A stretch of DNA of 41,660 nucleotides from a candidate division TM6 bacterium GW2011_GWF2_37_49. Lineage in GTDB: Bacteria; Babelota; Babeliae; Babelales; RVW-14. The notes beneath the pieces were generated by a model. The model had not been told where the DNA came from. It did no database searches and saw nothing but the letters and a program-made list of their open reading frames with translations. The stretch's first letter is position 1. Each line of letters begins with the position of its first letter. Below are positions 10,946 to 31,565 of the stretch, one piece after another. A program made the translations under genes and the position numbers. The DNA is taken from the NCBI GenBank assembly GCA_945861145.1, contig CAMATL010000007.1, positions 1-41,660 on the forward strand. The letters are read 5' to 3'.

Positions 10946-11017
10946 TCACCTATCTTAATTTTTAATAAAGCTCCAGTTCAAATGCAACGAAGCTTCATTA
11001 AAAATTAAGATAGGTGA
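10946..11017. terminator. Long inverted repeat between two exported-protein genes
   Basis: Two perfectly complementary 21-base arms (10946-10966 and 10997-11017) flank a 30-base spacer that includes GAAGCTTC. The outer sequence is AT-rich, with T runs on both sides. It may end transcription of the upstream gene or act as a cruciform or regulatory site. The spacer is long for a simple terminator. Confidence 0.55.
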
Positions 11018-11955: not shown

Positions 11956-12019
11956 TTTCCTTCCGCCTTATCAGATTTGCGATGCACTTTTGTGCTCACA
12001 CAATCTGTAGCGAAGGAAA
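11956..12019 (+). promoter_or_regulatory. Foldable leader of rho
   Basis: Three nested stems can form: an outer one with a single bulge (TTTCCTTCCGC with GCGAAGGAAA), a middle one (CAGATT 11972-11977 with AATCTG 12002-12007) and an inner one (GCAC-TTTT-GTGC, 11984-11995). The fold ends about 30 bases before the rho ATG. rho is autoregulated through its leader in some bacteria; a similar role here is inference. Confidence 0.45.
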
Positions 12020-12050
12020 GATTCCTCTAACTTTTATTAATGTTGGTTGT

Positions 12051-14030
12051 ATGGTTAAAGATAACAACGAAAAAGCTCCGATAACAGGAAACGACGCTGC
12101 TGAAGAACGCCAAGAAAAGCCTAAGCAGACTCGTACACGTTCAACGCAGCCAAAAAAAATCACTCAAGAACTCGTTGATCAAACCGCAGTAGAATTGAGC
12201 CAACTGGTTGACGAACCACCAGCCGTTGAAGAACAAGCTCAAGAGCAGGCTATGGAAGCAGAAGCTGCTCAACAGGTTGAACAAGCAGCCGAAATGCGAA
12301 CTCAACCAGAACAACAGCAACAACAAACACAACACCAGCCTACTCATCAACCTGCACCACGCCAACACTCACAACAACAAAATCCATCGCATCACAGACA
12401 ACAGTACCAAGGCCGCGAGCGCCAACAGTACAATAACAACCGCCAAGGCCAAAATCAGAATCAAGGCCAGGGCCAAGGATATCAAGGTCAAGGCCAAAAT
12501 CAGAACCCAAATCAAAATCAGGGTCAGAATCAAAACCAAGGCCAGGGATATCAAGGACAAAATCAAAACCAAAATCAGAATCAAGGCCAAGGCCAAAATA
12601 GCGGTGATTATCGTAATCGCCAACAACAACCGCGCCCGTATCAACAACAACCGCGTCCATATCAACAGCAACAGCAACAAACACCTTACTATGACCAACA
12701 AGCTGATCTTGACGCACAAAACGAGCCGACAGACAACACACCAAAACAATCAATGAATGTGCAAGAGCTTAAGGAAATGAGCATCATCAAGCTCATCGCT
12801 TATGCACAACAAGCAGGCATAACTGATGCTGCCTCATATAAAAAACAAGAACTTATTTATAGAATTTTAGAATCACAGTCCGAACGACGTATCGAAATTT
12901 TCTGTGAGGGTATCCTTGAACGCCTGCCTGACGGCTTTGGCTTCTTGCGCTCACCTAAATTTAATTATGTTCCAGGTCCTGATGACATCTATGTCTCACC
13001 AGTCCACATCAAGCGCTTTGCTCTGCGAACCGGCGATGTGGTTAAAGGAACTATCCGCAAACCAAAAGAAGGCGAAAAGTATTTTGCTCTGCAGCGCGTT
13101 GAAACAATCAACTATGAACCAGCATCAAACGCAGCAAGCAAAACGATGTTTGAAAATCTAACACCGCTTTTCCCAAACAAAAAATTTGATCTTGAAGGCA
13201 CTACCGGTAACGGTTTAATCTCAATGCGTATCCTTGACCTACTCGTACCGATAGGAAAAGGACAACGCGGATTAATTGTTGCACCGCCAAAGACAGGTAA
13301 AACTTCACTACTCAAAGAGCTTGCAAATACCATCATTACTAATCACCCAGAAGTGATTTTAATGATTCTTAATATTGATGAGCGCCCAGAAGAAGTAACC
13401 GACATGCAACGCTCCGTTAATGCTGAAGTAGTCAGCTCAACATTTGATGAGTACGCCACACGCCACGTTCAAGTCGCAGAAATTGTGCTTGAAAAAGCTA
13501 AGCGCCTCGTTGAATATGGCCGCGATGTGGTAATCTTGCTTGACTCGATTACTCGCCTAGCTCGCGCGTACAACACGCTTGCACCATCATCTGGCAAGGT
13601 GCTGACTGGTGGTATTGATGCTAACGCGCTCCAGCGTCCAAAGCGCTTTTTTGGTGCTGCACGTAACGTTGAAGAAGGCGGGTCGCTCACGATCATTGCT
13701 ACGGCTCTTGTTGAAACCGGCTCAAAAATGGACGAAGTTATCTTTGAAGAATTCAAAGGTACCGGCAACATGGAAATCCATTTGACGAGAAAGCTTTCCA
13801 ACAAGCGCGTCTACCCAGCATTTGATTTAGTACCTTCAGGCACACGTCGTGAAGAGCTCATGCTCAACGAAGAACAAGTGTCTAACTTATGGGTTTTACA
13901 AAAATTCATGAGTACCATGAACACGGTAGAAGGCATGGAAGTGCTGATCGACAGACTTTCAAAAACGAAAACCAATCAAGAATTTCTTGAGCAAATGCAC
14001 AAGAAAAAACAACAAACTCAACAACGATAA
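12051..14030 (+). CDS. rho: Transcription termination factor Rho with long N/Q/G-rich N-terminal tail
   Basis: 659 residues from the ATG at 12051. The ATG at 11982 lies inside the leader hairpin and its extra residues do not look coding. Residues about 10-225 are a disordered region: acidic and Gln-rich first, then NQ/GQ/GYQGQ repeats and RPYQQQ copies. A normal Rho follows: N-terminal helical domain from about 233, cold-shock RNA-binding domain (GFGFLRSP), Walker [10 protein letters not shown] near 410, [13 protein letters not shown], the Q-loop region and the [10 protein letters not shown]-loop. Rho is an RNA-translocating hexameric helicase. N-terminal insertions are known in Actinobacteria, Bacteroidetes and Clostridia, where some drive condensate or prion-like behaviour. 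No clear ribosome site is visible. Confidence 0.95.
12430..12685 (+). repeat. Low-complexity repeat tract in the rho tail
   Basis: The codons for Gln, Asn and Gly are repeated (units such as CAAAATCAGAATCAAGGC, GGATATCAAGGTCAA and two CCGTATCAACAACAACCGCG-like units). Such tracts can change length by slippage. Units in multiples of three preserve the reading frame. Confidence 0.7.
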
Positions 14031-17277: not shown

Positions 17278-18180
17278 ATGGATTGCATTGGCCAACTCAT
17301 TTTAACTGAACAGACCTGTAATGATTCAATAGCCTGGGCAAGGGATATTTTGCCCATGACCATTGATGGCACGGTGTTAATTGCACGCAATCTCACGCAA
17401 GCTCGTGGCCGTCAAGGCCGTCGTTGGATTTTGGCTCAAGGCCAAATCACACACACAGTAATTTTAAAACCATTCGATGATTGCCGCTCGAAAACCTTCG
17501 AGACGCAGCTAAAAGCTGCTCCTCAGGGCGAGCGGGGTTTAAGTAAAACAGAAGTAGAACAAATAAAAGAGCTCCCTATATCCGCTCATCCTGAGGAGGA
17601 TCAAAGATCCGTCTCGAAGGACATGAGCGGCTTTTCATGCACCGAACAAAGCCTTGCCGCACTCAACATGGCGTTCACGCTCGGCCTCTGGTCGCTGCTG
17701 CACAAACATGGCGCAACCATCAAGTGGCCCAATGACCTTTACCTCAATAATAAAAAACTTGGTGGTATGCTGTTTGAAAATCTATGGCATGGTGACGCGC
17801 TGACCAGCATTGTCGTTGCCTACAGTCTCAACATCAACAACAACTGCATTGGCCATGAAATTTTAGAACCTATCGCCACCAGCCTCGCTGACGCTACAGG
17901 AAAACAATTTGATTTAGGGCTTATGCAAACAGAACTATTCGCATCGCTCTCACAATTTTATGCTAGCTGGAAACGCGGCGAGTATCTTGAAATTTTTCGC
18001 CTCTGGCGCTCAGCGCAAGGTTACCTTGGCAAATCAATCAAGGTTCACAATAAAGATGGTTCACTTCTGGAAGGCATAGCACAAGATGTATTACCAAATG
18101 GTGATTTAGTTTTAGCTGTTGCGACATCAGACCGTACCGTAGTTGTTACATTTTCACAGGTTGAAGAAGTAAGTATCTAG
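17278..18180 (+). CDS. birA: Biotin--[acetyl-CoA-carboxylase] ligase with an in-frame repeat insertion
   Basis: 300 residues; no N-terminal DNA-binding domain, so a class I ligase. ARGRQGRRW (biotin and AMP loop), KWPNDLYLNNKKLGGML and the C-terminal SH3-like domain (GEYLEIFRLW to the end) are present. It attaches biotin to carboxylases. Residues about 67-120 (PFDDCRSK to GFSC) have no place in the family. Their DNA (17476-17637) is a palindromic repeat with a near copy at 28324-28408, apparently read through in frame. The insertion lies between the VILKP strand and the helix starting EQSLAALNM, perhaps a surface loop, so the enzyme may still fold. The ribosome site GCGGAGG precedes the ATG. 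Confidence 0.92.
   Translation: MDCIGQLILTEQTCNDSIAWARDILPMTIDGTVLIARNLTQARGRQGRRWILAQGQITHTVILKPFDDCRSKTFETQLKAAPQGERGLSKTEVEQIKELPISAHPEEDQRSVSKDMSGFSCTEQSLAALNMAFTLGLWSLLHKHGATIKWPNDLYLNNKKLGGMLFENLWHGDALTSIVVAYSLNINNNCIGHEILEPIATSLADATGKQFDLGLMQTELFASLSQFYASWKRGEYLEIFRLWRSAQGYLGKSIKVHNKDGSLLEGIAQDVLPNGDLVLAVATSDRTVVVTFSQVEEVSI
17476..17637 (+). repeat. In-frame palindromic repeat element inside birA
   Basis: Two palindromic modules. Module 1 (17484-17535) is bounded by CCGCTCG and CGAGCGG and contains CTCGAA-AACC-TTCGAG and GCAGCT-AAA-AGCTGC. Module 2 (17582-17630) is bounded by CCGCTCAT and ATGAGCGG and contains GGATC-AAA-GATCC. Bases 17482-17524 match 28324-28366 at 40 of 43 positions without a gap, and CAGGGCGAGCGG recurs at both sites. 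This resembles the Rickettsia palindromic elements, which insert in frame in protein genes. Boundaries are approximate. Confidence 0.8.
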
Positions 18181-25078: not shown

Positions 25079-25299
25079 GTCGGCAAAACCTTTTTGAGAA
25101 AAACGATGTGCAATACCCTGTATTTAAAAGTTTAAAGCAACCTACAAATTATGAAAGCTAAACTTCAAAATGACGGCTCTATAGGGCAATCGGTTACAAG
25201 TGAAGATTGTTTTTATTCTTCTCGTTAATTAAAAATTATCACTCAGCAACACTCTCAGGCATAAGATCAGCAATTCACAACCTGCCTGCAAAAAGTCGG

Positions 25300-25327
25300 T
25301 TGAAAACAAGCTTATTTATGGTAGAGT
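25300..25327 (+). promoter_or_regulatory. Candidate promoter for the first exported/AAA+ cassette
   Basis: TTGAAA (25300-25305), a 16-base gap and TAGAGT (25322-25327) lie about 40 bases before the ATG. This is in the 287-base divergent gap between ftsY and the cassette. The spacing is short and the -10 match modest. Confidence 0.3.
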
Positions 25328-25365
25328 TCACCTTCTTCAGAATTCATTCTTCAAGTAGGATTACA

Positions 25366-26682
25366 ATGCGAAATAAAAAACTCTTGGTTTATGCCTTTTT
25401 TTGCTTGGCACTAAACACCGTAAATGCTAGCGCACCTGTAGCAGGGAAAAATAGCGACAATCCAACAGTAGAAGTCGATGCCGAAGAGCCATTCAATGAA
25501 GCTGAAATTAATGCCATTGCTGCAGATGCGCAAGCTTACGCCGACCCTGCCTATGTGGCAGGCCTGCAAGCCGATGCAGCAGAATTTCAAACCCCTGATT
25601 TTATTCATAGGGTACGATATGCCCGCGAAGCCAGCTATGAAGCCCTAGATGCTTTCTATAAAAAAATACTTTATGAGCACCCAGTAAGCTTACGTGAGAT
25701 GATCCCTGCCGATCGAGTACATAACCTTATTCCTCAAAATCAATTAAATTTTATACCAAATTTAAGAGTCGGGATTTTAGCTAGCGATGTTATTGGGCTA
25801 GCTTCATACACGACTCAATACGCCGTGAATCAGCGCAGTATAAGGGTATTAACAAACAATTTAGCCAAAGCATTGGCCATTGCAGCACAAGATCACCACG
25901 AACAAATAATTGCGTTTCTTGAACAAAAAGGTCCTGATCGTACCCAAGAAAATATCGAAATTATTACCGACCATCTCACTAAAACAGTGTGGCACGCCAA
26001 TGAAAAACTTCCTCTGATTAGCTCATTTCTTAAATACCGCCTTGCTCATGCTGGCCTTGAATGTGTTAAAAAAAGTGTTACACCATTGCCGTTCTACATG
26101 CATGGCAAAACAACGCCTGGCCAAGCTGTTGACGCAAGCGTTGCGCACATAATACCAATCACCAGCATTATTCCAACAACGCTGATTGACGGATTAATCC
26201 ATCGCGAATTTCGTACTACATTTATGCTTTCAGCATCTGAGAGTGCTCTTGAATTGGCGAAACAGTATGAACAAGTTGGCACCATAGATGAAAACCTGTT
26301 ATTCATTGCGGCAAAAGAAATGGCCATTAGCATGCTCTTTTTTCACTACAGCTTTAAGCCATTAGTGAAGAAAATTTTAATCGATGCTCTTCTTACAGAA
26401 AAAAATCACCTCCTAGCAACATTAAATCATTATCAAGAGACTCAAAAAAATTTAACGTTGCCAGAAGATGTTCGCCAAGCAGAAGAAAAAGAATGCCTTG
26501 AGGCTCTCACTTTACTGTTTAATAAGGCACTACAAGAACATCATCACACGTTTGTAAAAAATATGAGATCTTCAGAAAATTCATACAACACACTTGTCAA
26601 TGGGATTATCCTCGCACCAGTCGCTTATAAAATAATATCTACGGGCTGGGCAGCTTACAAAGCCATAACCGCAAATAACTAA
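25366..26682 (+). CDS. Exported helical protein, partner of an ATAD3-like ATPase (cassette copy 1)
   Basis: 438 residues from the ATG at 25366, which has the ribosome site TAGGA and a signal peptide (MRNKKLLVYAFFCLALNTVNA). It is a paralogue of the gene at 28684. Shared stretches include DPAYxxxLxxxxAxFxxPDFxH, KKILYExP, PFYxHGKTTxGQA, FIxAKEMAxSMLFFHY and YxxxQKNLTL. The protein is mostly helical and ends in a hydrophobic segment (IILAPVAYKIISTGWAAYKAI) that may be a membrane anchor. No known family recognised. The ATPase gene follows after about 20 bases; the same order recurs in copy 2, which implies a working partnership. Confidence 0.82.
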   Translation: MRNKKLLVYAFFCLALNTVNASAPVAGKNSDNPTVEVDAEEPFNEAEINAIAADAQAYADPAYVAGLQADAAEFQTPDFIHRVRYAREASYEALDAFYKKILYEHPVSLREMIPADRVHNLIPQNQLNFIPNLRVGILASDVIGLASYTTQYAVNQRSIRVLTNNLAKALAIAAQDHHEQIIAFLEQKGPDRTQENIEIITDHLTKTVWHANEKLPLISSFLKYRLAHAGLECVKKSVTPLPFYMHGKTTPGQAVDASVAHIIPITSIIPTTLIDGLIHREFRTTFMLSASESALELAKQYEQVGTIDENLLFIAAKEMAISMLFFHYSFKPLVKKILIDALLTEKNHLLATLNHYQETQKNLTLPEDVRQAEEKECLEALTLLFNKALQEHHHTFVKNMRSSENSYNTLVNGIILAPVAYKIISTGWAAYKAITANN

Positions 26683-26703
26683 CCAATGAAAGAGCTTACA
26701 ATG

Positions 26704-28248
26704 ATGAAACGTATTTTAATTGCAGTAATTTCTCTGAGCATGGCGGATCTATGCCCCATGGATTCGTGGATGCAAAATTTGGCACAAAACACCAATCCTG
26801 AAGATATTCAAAGAGCCTTGGGTAGAATCGGTCAATGGGACGAAGCTCTTAGGGTAGAACACCGAGAACCACTTACCCGCGGCATTGAAGCTGCCAACGC
26901 TACTCAACTTGCTGCAATTCGAAATCTTGAAGCTGGACGCATTGGCCAGAGACAATACGATTTAATCATTGAGCAAGAACGAGATAAACGAGTAGCGCTT
27001 CAGGCTGACCTTGCTCAACAACAACGGCAAGAAGCCCGCTCCGCAGAGCTTGTGGGAAATGTCTTCGGTGTAATGACAGACGGCGTTAAAGAATACATGC
27101 ATGAAGAAAATACTCGCAAGACAAAAATCGTTACGGCCGCAGCTACCGCAGCCGCCGGTCAAAAAGAAGCAAATAAAGGGCTCTTAGCTATCGCACAACA
27201 CAACACATCTCAAGAAGTTTTATTACGCACGGGACTAACTATCGTTGGTGTAGGCGCTGGCCTCGTGGTAGCTTATTATGGAACAAAATTTGCTTGTGAG
27301 TACGCTCAACAATTTATTGGTATGCCAGAATTGGTCCGAGAATCCTCTGACAAGGGAATGTGGGAAAAACTCGCAAACTTATTTGGAAGCGGCCCTAAAG
27401 AAACATTTAGCACAATTGTTTTACCTGCTGATATTAAAGCATCGGTAGAACGAGTAGCTGCATCTACAAAAATTATTGCTCAACACAATAGAGAAGTAGC
27501 TAAAGAAGAAAGAATCCCACATCGTGGCGTTCTACTCTATGGCCCACCTGGCACCGGTAAAACAATGATCGCTAAAGCAATTGCGCGAGAAAGCAAGACA
27601 AGCTACGCCATTATGTCCGGTTCTGATTTCTCGCAGTTTAAAGAAGGCGAAGATGTTCATCAGCTACACATGGCTTTTGATCGCGCAGAAAAAGGCAACG
27701 GCGATTTCATATTCTTTTTTGACGAAGTAGACGGCTTTTTACTAAAACGTGAAATGCTTGATGCCCGCGGCCGCAAGCTATTGCTTGCATTCTTGGCTCG
27801 TACAGGCGCAAAAACAAACGTCAAAATTTTTATTGCTACTAACCGCCCACAAGATCTTGATACTGCCGTGCTGAGCCGTATGTCTGAGCATATCCATGTG
27901 GGTCTACCTAAGCTTGAAGAACGCATTACGCTCTTAAATCAATACCTTAATATGTATTACGGCATTGATAACACAACAGGTGCTACTATCGCGCCAGAAA
28001 TCGACAGAACCAGCCTAATCCCTCTGGCTAAGCGCTTGGAAAGATTCTCTGGCCGCGACATTGAAGATATTGTTGGATTGGTACAAGATCAGCTGCTACT
28101 CAGCCAACAAAAGATAATTACTCTCGATATCGTCAACGCAGCAGCTAATGAGAAAATGCAACAGAAAAAAGGCGTCCACTCATACAAAGAAGATGAGTTT
28201 TCAGACTTACCTGTAACAGCAACGCCTCATGTAGCCGTCGCTGTTTAA
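26704..28248 (+). CDS. ATAD3-like membrane AAA+ ATPase (cassette copy 1)
   Basis: 514 residues from the ATG at 26704, chosen by alignment with copy 2; ATGs at 26701 and 26686 are alternatives. Order: signal-like MKRILIAVISLSMADLCPM; charged helical, probably coiled-coil region (about 30-115); membrane helix (about 176-192); MPELVRESS (207-215); linker VLPADIKASVERVAAST; AAA+ domain with Walker A GPPGTGKT (280-287), YAIMSGSD, Walker B IFFFDEVDGFLLKRE, sensor ATNRP (378-382) and SRMSE. A cleaved signal plus one helix would put the coiled coil outside and the ATPase in the cytoplasm. Layout and motifs match ATAD3 of eukaryotic mitochondria as I remember it. The substrate is unknown. Confidence 0.88.
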   Translation: MKRILIAVISLSMADLCPMDSWMQNLAQNTNPEDIQRALGRIGQWDEALRVEHREPLTRGIEAANATQLAAIRNLEAGRIGQRQYDLIIEQERDKRVALQADLAQQQRQEARSAELVGNVFGVMTDGVKEYMHEENTRKTKIVTAAATAAAGQKEANKGLLAIAQHNTSQEVLLRTGLTIVGVGAGLVVAYYGTKFACEYAQQFIGMPELVRESSDKGMWEKLANLFGSGPKETFSTIVLPADIKASVERVAASTKIIAQHNREVAKEERIPHRGVLLYGPPGTGKTMIAKAIARESKTSYAIMSGSDFSQFKEGEDVHQLHMAFDRAEKGNGDFIFFFDEVDGFLLKREMLDARGRKLLLAFLARTGAKTNVKIFIATNRPQDLDTAVLSRMSEHIHVGLPKLEERITLLNQYLNMYYGIDNTTGATIAPEIDRTSLIPLAKRLERFSGRDIEDIVGLVQDQLLLSQQKIITLDIVNAAANEKMQQKKGVHSYKEDEFSDLPVTATPHVAVAV

Positions 28249-28312: not shown

Positions 28313-28457
28313 CAGGCAGGAACTGCCGCTCGAAACCTTTCGAGACGCAGCTAGAAGCTGCTCCTCCCGACCCTCGCCAAGGCTATGATGGACAGGCAGG
28401 GCGAGCGGAAGATGGGCAGTTTATCCTGAGCTTGTCGAAGGGTCCTGGATGGCAGAA
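28313..28457. repeat. Composite palindromic repeat, intergenic copy
   Basis: Bases 28324-28366 match the birA insert at 17482-17524 (40 of 43), and CAGGGCGAGCGG recurs at 28397-28408. An extra internal segment (CCCTCGCC to GGGCGAG) is present. It is followed by TCCTGAGCTTGTCGAAGGGTCCTGG, containing a short palindromic repeat type that I recall from many bacterial genomes. The remaining bases of the 435-base gap, 28458-28683, hold no gene that I can see. Confidence 0.75.
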
Positions 28458-28683
28458 CTGTTGATTCAATAGTCTCTTTCAAGAATTGATTTCTACAATA
28501 ATTCTAGACCTTCAAGCCACCACCCAATTCGAAAAAAACCACCCCAAGCCTCGCCACTGATAGTTTCAAGCAGAAACATTAATCCCTCACTCATAACCCC
28601 TTGCCTGAGGGTAGACCGGGGCGGTTGAGAATTACTTAGCCCATGGTACAGTGGTTTGGGTTCTTAATTTTAATGGGGGGACT

Positions 28684-29952
28684 ATGGGAAATAAATTTTT
28701 TGGGCTTTATGCCCTTCTTTTTCTAACCATACACGCTGCACATGCCAGCGCACCCGTTACCATGCCTGGCGCAGAAGTGGGGGCAGCAAAAGCTGGCTAC
28801 ACACTCTCTCCAGAGCTTGAAAAGCTTATCGAAAAATACCAAGACCCTGCCTACCTTGAAGAGCTCACACATAACGTGGCAAAATTTGAACATCCAGACT
28901 TTCTGCACAAAATTTTGCATGCTCGCGAGACCGGCCTTGAATTAATAGATACTTTAAATAAAAAAATCTTATATGAGTTTCCATCATTTATACGCGCTCC
29001 AAATGGCAAAGCCGTTGGAATTTTTGCATGCGACCTTATTACCCTTGGCACACATACCGCACAATACCTCTTAGACAAAAGCAGTATTCAGGCATTAAAT
29101 GGTAGCCTTGCTCATGCGTTTACCAAGGCAATCCTAGAAGATGATGAACAAATGGCATTGCTTCTCGAGCAAAGAAACACCGAAGCCGTTATCGCACAGC
29201 TCATACAAACGGTATGGGAAAGCAAAGTAAGTATATCGCTACTTGGCACCTACCTTACCCGCCGTCTTGTGCATGCCGGGCTTGTGTATGCTAAAAAAGA
29301 AGTAACCCCACCGCCATTTTATATTCATGGCAAAACAACTCAGGGCCAAGCTGCCGATCAAGATCTGGCGCGAATTACGCCAATCACAACCATCTTTCCT
29401 GAGGGAACTATCGAGGCGATGTTTGATCACACAATTAATGATAATTCTGAAGAGATAAGAAACAGCCTAGGGTTTAATATTGCCTCGCAATATCTTATTG
29501 AAGGCGCAAAGCAGCTTGAATGGATCGGCTCCATAGATGAAGGCGCGCTGTTTATAGTGGCAAAAGAAATGGCCACAAGCATGCTTTTTTTTCATTACGA
29601 CCTTAAAAATTCTATTCACGGCATGTTACGGCTTGCTCTCTGTATGCAAACAGAAGCGCTACACAATTTATTGATGCGCTACCGTGAAGCACAAAAAAAC
29701 TTAACGCTATCAGAAGAAGGCCGCGCAGCAGAAAAAAAACAATGCGCTAAAGCTCTTGAATTGTTTTTCAATACCGCCCTGCAGCAACGCCAGCAAGACC
29801 TACTTATTAATCAACGCTTTGCACAACGCAGGTACAATACAATTACTAATGCGCTCTTACTCACACCAGCGCTCTACAAAATCGTATCACTCGGATGGAA
29901 ATTATTAAAAGCAGTTTACGCGACTCAAAAGAGCGCAACAGTCAGTACATAA
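28684..29952 (+). CDS. Exported helical protein, partner of an ATAD3-like ATPase (cassette copy 2)
   Basis: 422 residues from the ATG at 28684, which has the ribosome site GGGGGGACT and a signal peptide (MGNKFFGLYALLFLTIHAAHA). It is a paralogue of the gene at 25366: the shared blocks line up along the whole length, including the C-terminal hydrophobic segment (LLLTPALYKIVSLGWKLLKAV). It lacks about 20 residues near position 110 that copy 1 has. The ATPase start is 11 bases after its stop. Confidence 0.82.
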   Translation: MGNKFFGLYALLFLTIHAAHASAPVTMPGAEVGAAKAGYTLSPELEKLIEKYQDPAYLEELTHNVAKFEHPDFLHKILHARETGLELIDTLNKKILYEFPSFIRAPNGKAVGIFACDLITLGTHTAQYLLDKSSIQALNGSLAHAFTKAILEDDEQMALLLEQRNTEAVIAQLIQTVWESKVSISLLGTYLTRRLVHAGLVYAKKEVTPPPFYIHGKTTQGQAADQDLARITPITTIFPEGTIEAMFDHTINDNSEEIRNSLGFNIASQYLIEGAKQLEWIGSIDEGALFIVAKEMATSMLFFHYDLKNSIHGMLRLALCMQTEALHNLLMRYREAQKNLTLSEEGRAAEKKQCAKALELFFNTALQQRQQDLLINQRFAQRRYNTITNALLLTPALYKIVSLGWKLLKAVYATQKSATVST

Positions 29953-29963
29953 AGGGTTTTAAG

Positions 29964-31565
29964 ATGAAGAGAATTTTAATTATAGTTTTTATGCTTACCA
30001 TGGCAGACCTATGCGCCATGCGACAAACAATGAATATCGGCGGGCAAGCCATCGATGTTCAAGATCTACAGCGCACGCTTACAGAAGCACAGCGCAACGG
30101 CCAAGAAGCATTTCAAGGCCAGCTTCGAAATATTAATTTTGATATTTCAGCATTTGAAGAACAACAAGCACAACTTGCTATCAATTTAGCAACAAAGCGC
30201 ATCACCCAAGCAGAATATGATGTCCGCATAAAGCAGCTTGATCGTCGCCTTGAAGCTCGCCAAAAAGATATTGAAGCGCTCAATAAACAATCAGAGAAAA
30301 TATCAGAAGTCATGACCAGTATCGTTAGCCAAGGGGCTACCCTTCTAATCGATACCATGAAAGACGAAAGCACACGTAAAACGCATATCGCCGTAGCCGC
30401 CGCTAGCGCTGCAGCAGGGCAAGAAGTAAAAAATCGTGGCGACCTAGAACAACTACAGCTAAAAAACGCTCAGGATCTGACGCTCATGCGACAAAAAATA
30501 CAGGCCCTTACATCCCCTGAATTCATGTACCGCACAGGTGGCACCGTTGCAGCTGCTGGAGCTGGCTTGATCATCACCTATTACGGCGCAAAATTTGGTA
30601 GCGAATACGCGCAACGCTTTATTGGCATGCCAACATTAGTACGTGAATCATCAGAAAAAAGCATGTGGGCGTCTCTGATGAGCTTAGTTACTGGCGCAGC
30701 TAAAGAAACATTTGGCAATATCGTACTTCCTGCGGCTATCAAAGCATCGGTAGAACGTGTATCAGCATCTACAAAAACCATAGCTCAACACAATGCAAAA
30801 TCCCCAAAAGACAAGCAAATCCCACATCGCGGCGTGCTTCTTTATGGACCTCCTGGCACCGGTAAAACAATGATCGCCAAAGCAATTGCTCGCGATAGCC
30901 GTATTCCTTACGCCATTATGTCCGGTTCAGATTTTGCTCAGTTTGAAGAAGGCGAAGATGTTCACCAATTTAACTTACTTATGGATTGGGCAGAGCTACG
31001 CGGCGCTATAATCTTTTTTGACGAAGTAGATGGTTTTTTACTCAAACGCGAACTACTTGATCAACGCGGACGCAAATTATTACTCGGCTTCTTGGCCCGT
31101 ACCGGTGGTAAATCAAATGTTAAAATTTTCATCGCGACTAACCGACCTAAGGATCTTGATACTGCCGTGCTTAGCCGCATGTCTGAACGTATCAAAGTGG
31201 GCCTGCCAGACCTTGAAGCACGTATTACATTGCTACAACAATACCTTTACATGTACTACGGTCCAGGCAATACAACCGGCATCAGCATCTCACCAGAGAT
31301 TAATGACACAAGCTTAAAAGCCCTTGCAATGCGTCTTGATAAATTTTCTGGCCGCGAAATTGAAGACATCGCCGGCTTGGTACAAGATCAGCTAGTAAGT
31401 AGTAAGCAAGTAATTGTTACGCTCGCTATTATTAATGCTGCGGCTGATGAAAAGATCAAACAAAGCAGAGACGTTGATGCATATCAAGAAGATGGGTTTT
31501 CAGATTCATTTGATCCACTAAAAGCAACCCATGGCGTACTGAATAACCCTGCCATCGACGGTTAA
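29964..31565 (+). CDS. ATAD3-like membrane AAA+ ATPase (cassette copy 2)
   Basis: 533 residues from the ATG at 29964, which has the ribosome site AAAGGG. Signal-like MKRILIIVFMLTMADLCAM; coiled-coil candidate (about 60-115 and 158-182); membrane helix (about 191-208); RFIGMPTLVRESS (218-230); Walker A GPPGTGKT (295-302); Walker B IIFFDEVDGFLLKRE; ATNRP sensor. The AAA+ part is nearly the same as copy 1, while the N-terminal part has diverged and gained about 20 residues. Both copies keep all catalytic motifs, so both are probably active. They could form mixed rings or serve different partners. The C-terminal tail is acidic (DAYQEDGFSDSFDP). Confidence 0.88.
   Translation: MKRILIIVFMLTMADLCAMRQTMNIGGQAIDVQDLQRTLTEAQRNGQEAFQGQLRNINFDISAFEEQQAQLAINLATKRITQAEYDVRIKQLDRRLEARQKDIEALNKQSEKISEVMTSIVSQGATLLIDTMKDESTRKTHIAVAAASAAAGQEVKNRGDLEQLQLKNAQDLTLMRQKIQALTSPEFMYRTGGTVAAAGAGLIITYYGAKFGSEYAQRFIGMPTLVRESSEKSMWASLMSLVTGAAKETFGNIVLPAAIKASVERVSASTKTIAQHNAKSPKDKQIPHRGVLLYGPPGTGKTMIAKAIARDSRIPYAIMSGSDFAQFEEGEDVHQFNLLMDWAELRGAIIFFDEVDGFLLKRELLDQRGRKLLLGFLARTGGKSNVKIFIATNRPKDLDTAVLSRMSERIKVGLPDLEARITLLQQYLYMYYGPGNTTGISISPEINDTSLKALAMRLDKFSGREIEDIAGLVQDQLVSSKQVIVTLAIINAAADEKIKQSRDVDAYQEDGFSDSFDPLKATHGVLNNPAIDG

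Follow-up and report, generated by a model that had tools for sequence, protein, structure and literature searches.

The closest described systems are the GTAG and CGTC REPs surveyed by Di Nocera et al. (2013; PMC3733652), together with their dimers and with CGTC REPs that have no transposase. In Opitutus terrae, Rickettsia conorii, Thauera and others, some REPs are contained entirely within ORFs, to which they contribute 20–30 and up to 82 residues (PMC3733652). RPE-4 and RPE-6 of R. conorii are themselves CGTC REPs (PMC3733652). Like the Rickettsia palindromic elements (RPE-1, RPE-4 and RPE-6), the family described here consists of dispersed palindromes with many in-frame copies in the conserved genes of a small bacterial genome; some of the Rickettsia inserts span 43–82 residues (PMC3733652). 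It differs from those elements in unit architecture, in lineage and, as far as text descriptions alone allow the comparison, in sequence. Moreover, whereas RPE-bearing proteins have been shown to be expressed in Rickettsia (according to work cited in PMC3733652), here we infer translation. The family also resembles REP/BIME/REPIN sequences (PMC3733652), being made of short imperfect hairpins, single or in inverted dimers with variable spacers, mainly intergenic and sometimes within ORFs. Compared with GTAG and CGTC REPs, its unit is longer (∼50 nt), carries no terminal GTAG or CGTC tag, and combines invariant flanks with an inner stem that is hypervariable. Thus, the analogy to Rickettsia drawn in the original prediction applies to the behaviour of the element and not to its identity, which, by text descriptions, is a REP/BIME-type hairpin rather than an RPE.

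We analyzed a 41,660-nt stretch of DNA (the window) from a draft genome of 1.26 Mb in 57 contigs, 95.5% complete (G000). Assignment of the host to the phylum Dependentiae is plausible, being consistent with small genome sizes and with a phylum search in which one order was seen. The window contains birA, whose reading frame is open across a palindromic insert, so the frame is kept, as predicted (Table 1). BirA was identified in several ways: TIGR00121 (birA_ligase) scores above cut-off, Pfam BPL_LplA_LipB also matches, a BirA profile (A3) matches solved biotin ligases, and the BirA model hits biotin ligases with an E of 7e-18 (Foldseek). Our best explanation of the insert, with a probability of about 0.88, is a mobile, non-autonomous REP/BIME-like element that is translated in BirA as a tolerated loop. 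The element would consist of two imperfect ∼50-nt hairpin units, arranged head-to-head around a variable spacer.

Table 1. Coordinates of birA, its insert and related repeats in the window
Feature	Position	Strand	Basis
birA, biotin--protein ligase, 300 codons, open across insert	17278..18180	+	ORF list
In-frame insert of 52 codons (156 nt; residues 69-120)	17482..17637	+	Exactly 52 codons missing from same-genus BirA (L062)
Hairpin unit A, CCGCTCG..CCTTCGAGACG-CAGCT-AAA-AGCTG-CTCCTCAGGGCGAGCGG	17484..17535	+	Covariance model R1, 63.8 bits, window 17480-17538
Spacer between units A and B, 46 nt, open in birA frame	17536..17581	.	Sequence; spacer comparison
Hairpin unit B, inverted, inner stem GGATC-TTT-GATCC	17582..17630	-	Covariance model R1, 74.9 bits, window 17579-17634; pattern matches
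Copy of unit A between genes, split by 28367-28397	28326..28408	+	40/43 match; R1 24.4 bits on core 28340-28366
Fragment (31 nt) of a different dispersed repeat (..CGCCAAGGCTATG..GGACAGG..) within 28.3-kb unit	28367..28397	.	Sequence; related piece in L023
Short-loop subfamily core CCTTCGACAAGCTCAGG	28425..28441	-	Exact match in window

Each unit of the head-to-head pair in birA has the form CCGCTC..CCTTCGAGACG-(variable stem)-CTCCTCAGG..GAGCGG. The original prediction spoke of two nested palindromes; the palindromes are there, but they form two separate inverted hairpin units on either side of the 46-nt spacer. Pairing between the two units is also possible (–76.1 kcal/mol by RNA folding, z –7.3), and the inner stem of unit B is identical to that of a minus-strand unit within mutL. 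In a family search with BirA, the same-genus protein aligned to residues 1–67 and 121–300 with a single codon between. The insertion site falls between ILKPF(DD) and (CT)EQ, both in the DNA alignment and in a protein alignment of nine relatives. The predicted gain of ∼54 residues was nearly exact, the net insertion relative to the same-genus BirA being 52 codons (156 nt); its ends are uncertain by a few nucleotides, and the boundaries are set by a relative ∼71% identical in BirA. Alignment of BirA had been named beforehand as a test, and its outcome agreed with the prediction: the residues are absent from the same-genus BirA and from all further family sequences that span the site, and the DNA repeat occurs elsewhere in the genome.

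An AlphaFold model of BirA has a mean pLDDT of 80.7, with ∼90 in the core and <50 at residues 69–72 and 80–119. Strand 56–63 precedes the insert and helix 121–144 comes after. Most of the insert is thus predicted to be a disordered loop, with the remainder of the protein well folded. The translated element would form a 52-residue surface loop between the beta strand and the next helix. We considered that the insert might instead be an exapted functional peptide under selection, such as a regulatory loop of BirA. The loop does adjoin conserved biotin-ligase elements, yet it is predicted to be disordered, like peptides occur in unrelated proteins and arise from different unit frames, and no relative recovered has it. 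We therefore think exaptation very improbable; the enzyme appears to tolerate the loop, which probably brings no benefit. Inserts of this kind can depress family scores, a caution for annotators: the best Pfam stretch on BirA covers 38 residues only.

The link between birA and intergenic DNA at 28.3 kb stood up to scrutiny. Positions 17482–17524 and 28324–28366 form a 43-nt ungapped match with 93% identity (40/43). The match ends at CTCCTC because the 28.3-kb unit is interrupted there by 31 nt of another repeat. In the window, TCGAGACG-N-TCCTC has four matches (one hairpin counted twice) versus 0.01 expected from shuffles, which excludes short-range chance as the source of the core pattern. 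The short-loop core CCTTCGACAAGCTCAGG lies nearby, and is found at 10 places in the genome versus 0 for the reversed-pattern control. Rfam gave no family at the element, its sole match over the window being 5S rRNA at the window edge.

Across G000, the pattern CTTCGAGACG-N-TCCTC gave 36 matches versus 0 for its reversed control, and a looser pattern gave 58 versus 10. The whole-genome search proposed in the original prediction was carried out with a covariance model, built from the 36 aligned units with the structure written by hand, and returned 79 units. Flanking blocks are nearly invariant, whereas the four or five inner pairs vary freely and in step. In the 36-unit alignment, 88.5% of cells pair, and both sides changed in 91 cells; shuffles gave 32.0 ± 4.0 such cells, and sliding the partner by 1–3 columns gave no more than 15. 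Double changes compensate for variation in the hypervariable central stem and maintain pairing. A second hairpin subfamily, CCTTCGATACG-N-CACTCAGG, was also seen beside the main one in G000 (C1, C4, C9, C20, C29, C43, C47 and C49).

The traits of these units are those of REP/BIME sequences in general: a short imperfect palindrome dispersed in 79 units, single or in inverted dimers, and mainly intergenic. The 67 listed units form 43 groups, 29 of which fall outside conserved genes and also outside short frames and frames with an N-terminal unit; most copies would thus have settled between genes. Among close pairs, 23 of 24 are oriented '+ spacer –', with spacers of 9–135 nt; in 9 of 23, the spacer starts beside the unit with a motif like TCGAAGGACA. 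Units are spread over ∼25 contigs, inside contigs and mostly far from their ends. This placement bears on whether repeats were stitched into genes during metagenome assembly or binning. The draft state of the genome, with its 57 contigs, would allow such an artefact, but the preserved frames also argue against it, as do independent assemblies (G006 and G008) that behave alike in other genes. We consider an artefact extremely improbable.

Other genomes were searched with the same covariance model. The same-genus genome has 6 units, G006 has 91 and G008 has 50; of the other family genomes, two hold 5 and 2 units, and no unit was detected in the last five. Phylum-wide, under stricter filters, matches were found in 8 of 101 genomes. 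Such a patchy distribution is as expected of a mobile element. The family appears to have been mobile recently and would have spread through G000 after its split from the same-genus relative.

Several known element types were compared with these units and rejected. GTAG REPs with a RAYT (REPtron) do not fit: the units end in CCGCTC/GAGCGG, and no repeat-flanked tyrosine transposase was found in G000 or G006. The consensus also differs from that of CGTC REPs (CGTC end, 8–9 bp stem, 4–5 nt loop, CCA tail), as compared with the text description. An IS-derived MITE would share the inverted-repeat ends, but paired units are often different variants, and no target-site duplication above chance was found over 23 pairs.

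Beyond birA, at least seven conserved genes of G000 carry in-frame units: mutL, tilS, cca, rpiB, uppP, a cyclase gene and a CheA-like kinase gene. The central claim of the original prediction, that a dispersed palindromic repeat inserts in frame and adds peptides to conserved proteins, is therefore supported by at least eight genes. Host genes were identified by Pfam and NCBIfam (UppP stands for UppP/BacA). Short frames, and those with the unit at the N-terminus, were treated separately, since translation may really begin further downstream. For MutL, TilS, RpiB and UppP, the extra residues are absent in the same-genus genome, giving four clean empty sites; with birA, these show the RPE trait of an in-frame insertion absent from relatives. 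In the CCA-adding enzyme (L139, C26:7391–7529), the element occupies the position of the HD motif (CHDLGK..GH) of relatives, and the motif itself is absent from this enzyme; this site falls outside the coverage of the same-genus gene. The HD-motif part of the enzyme was probably lost, perhaps together with a domain function, through the insertion. Because the motif is missing at the insert, not every insertion would be neutral.

Independent in-frame units were found in G006 and G008, in the genes for TsaB, RsmE, MnmA, an acyl-AMP ligase, an Lnt-like protein and a Cu-oxidase_4 (YfiH-like) protein. MurE carries one in both genomes (L333 in G006, L338 in G008). The two MurE inserts occupy the same loop region, and automatic alignment superposes both repeats; since the TFG motif separates their positions, we read them as independent. 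This suggests independent insertions at a tolerated site in MurE of two genera. Two or three REP-type units per gene, including the short CCTTCGACAAGCTCAGG type, were observed in frame in L340 (MnmA, G008) and L318 (membrane proteins, G006).

How suited is the element to coding insertion? A single unit is open in 66–81% of cases per forward frame, and pairs are open in ∼1/6 of frames; its suitability is thus moderate rather than special. Genic copies would survive if their length is a multiple of three nucleotides, they hold no stop in the host frame and they fall in a tolerated loop or linker. Because an open frame across the unit served as the criterion for a coding copy, this in-frame rule is partly built into the search. 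These observations bear on whether the hairpin RNA is spliced out or bypassed by the ribosome, with no peptide added. The RNA hairpins are very stable, and translationally bypassed palindromic elements have been reported in Magnusiomyces mitochondria (as cited in PMC6649704). But bypass would make freedom from frameshifts and stops needless, yet each coding copy is open and lengthens its gene by a whole number of codons, whereas 8 of 16 intergenic pairs have no open frame. Nor was any conserved gene seen broken out of frame beside the nine intergenic pairs inspected (Pfam on flanking genes), a check that is not a complete count of out-of-frame copies. We judge that removal of the insert from the product has only a slim chance of being correct, and favor translation of a tolerated, non-autonomous element.

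We searched G000 for a mobilising enzyme, using three families. No RAYT/Y1 transposase (PF01797) and no reverse transcriptase (RVT_1, PF00078) were found in the 95.5% complete assembly, and the DDE transposase DDE_Tnp_1 (PF01609) was represented by two fragments only. Because no mobilising enzyme was found in G000, the 'selfish' nature ascribed to the element is unproven. PF01797 genes occur in 36 of 101 phylum genomes, with no visible relation to unit number. A RAYT-type tyrosine transposase, since lost or encoded in the missing 4.5% of the genome, could have moved the units, as in a REPIN-like system that lost its engine. This proposal concerns the engine only and is compatible with our best explanation. 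The dimer architecture resembles REP dimers, and G006, with its 91 units, is among the genomes with PF01797. Yet G003 and G008 bear units and have no PF01797, and in G006 no unit lies within ∼1.5 kb of either PF01797 gene (L315, L316), whereas RAYTs are usually flanked by their own REPs. The units also have no GTAG tag, and transposase-free CGTC REPs are already published (PMC3733652). We regard a RAYT engine as doubtful, if conceivable.

Many copies of the core CCTTCGAGACG-N-CTCCTCAGGATGAG occur in Alphaproteobacteria, a scan yielding at least 120 stretches. Among the matches listed, titles carry alphaproteobacterial or broader proteobacterial names, except for one BMS3Bbin10 record titled 'Bacterium'. 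These CCTTCGAGACG..CTCCTCAGGATGAGG repeats (Bradyrhizobium, Bosea, Reyranella, Methylocystis and others) have the same flanks as the G000 units and an inner stem that is likewise hypervariable yet compensated; they too form inverted pairs and occasionally lie within genes. Unlike the G000 units, they have no additional CCGCTC/GAGCGG outer stem, and the pairs among the matches listed are mostly '– +' with short gaps (25, versus 7 '+ –'), the opposite of G000. The 155 alphaproteobacterial units among the matches listed have 45 different inner 4-mers, mostly with 4–6 perfect inner pairs; they show no GTAG tag, GTAG being found no more than 25 nt from the 3′ end in 6 of the 155. Two of the 10 long spanning alphaproteobacterial frames examined hold a unit, those of UvrC and a 2-oxoacid dehydrogenase E2. 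In UvrC (L290:323–2470), the unit lies inside the RNase H domain, where 216 residues matched a 159-position profile. DNA-repair genes are recurrent REP targets in the published survey too (PMC3733652). A broader scenario is that a REP lineage with this shared core repeatedly invaded the core proteome of one (probably Dependentiae) family, by transposase-independent or unknown movement, and that hairpin template switching during replication made the hypervariable but perfectly paired stems, continually rewriting both stem and encoded peptides; we offer it as speculation that is probably wrong in some part.

A literature search of incomplete coverage found no report of such elements in Dependentiae, searches with the repeat sequence found nothing relevant, and the paper on Chromulinavorax, a member of Dependentiae, makes no mention of palindromic or transposable elements. 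Because in-frame REPs are published in other phyla (PMC3733652), the element counts as a further case of known behaviour; the addition is the host lineage and such a unit in coding sequence. It probably places a new phylum, independent of Rickettsia, among the few lineages in which palindromic repeats write peptides into core enzymes. The affected enzymes include BirA, TilS, the CCA enzyme, MurE, MnmA and TsaB, all usually essential elsewhere. Four related genomes that differ greatly in unit number (79, 6, 91 and 50), together with clean empty sites, allow one to investigate by what means REPs move without a transposase, and where in a protein 20–75 additional residues are tolerated.

Other repeats were seen in the window. 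A two-gene module (a secreted protein and an AAA+ ATPase with a similar N-terminal leader) is present as a tandem duplicate at 25207–28248 and 28651–31565, the copies being ∼3.3 kb apart and 73–79% identical in blocks. A Rho-like termination factor (11982–14030) has a long Q/N/G-rich low-complexity N-terminal region with direct repeats at 12441–12598; regions of this kind are called prion-like in some Rho proteins. Finally, a near-perfect 27-nt inverted repeat (96%, 18-nt loop) lies at 10946–11017, between two putative exported-protein genes.
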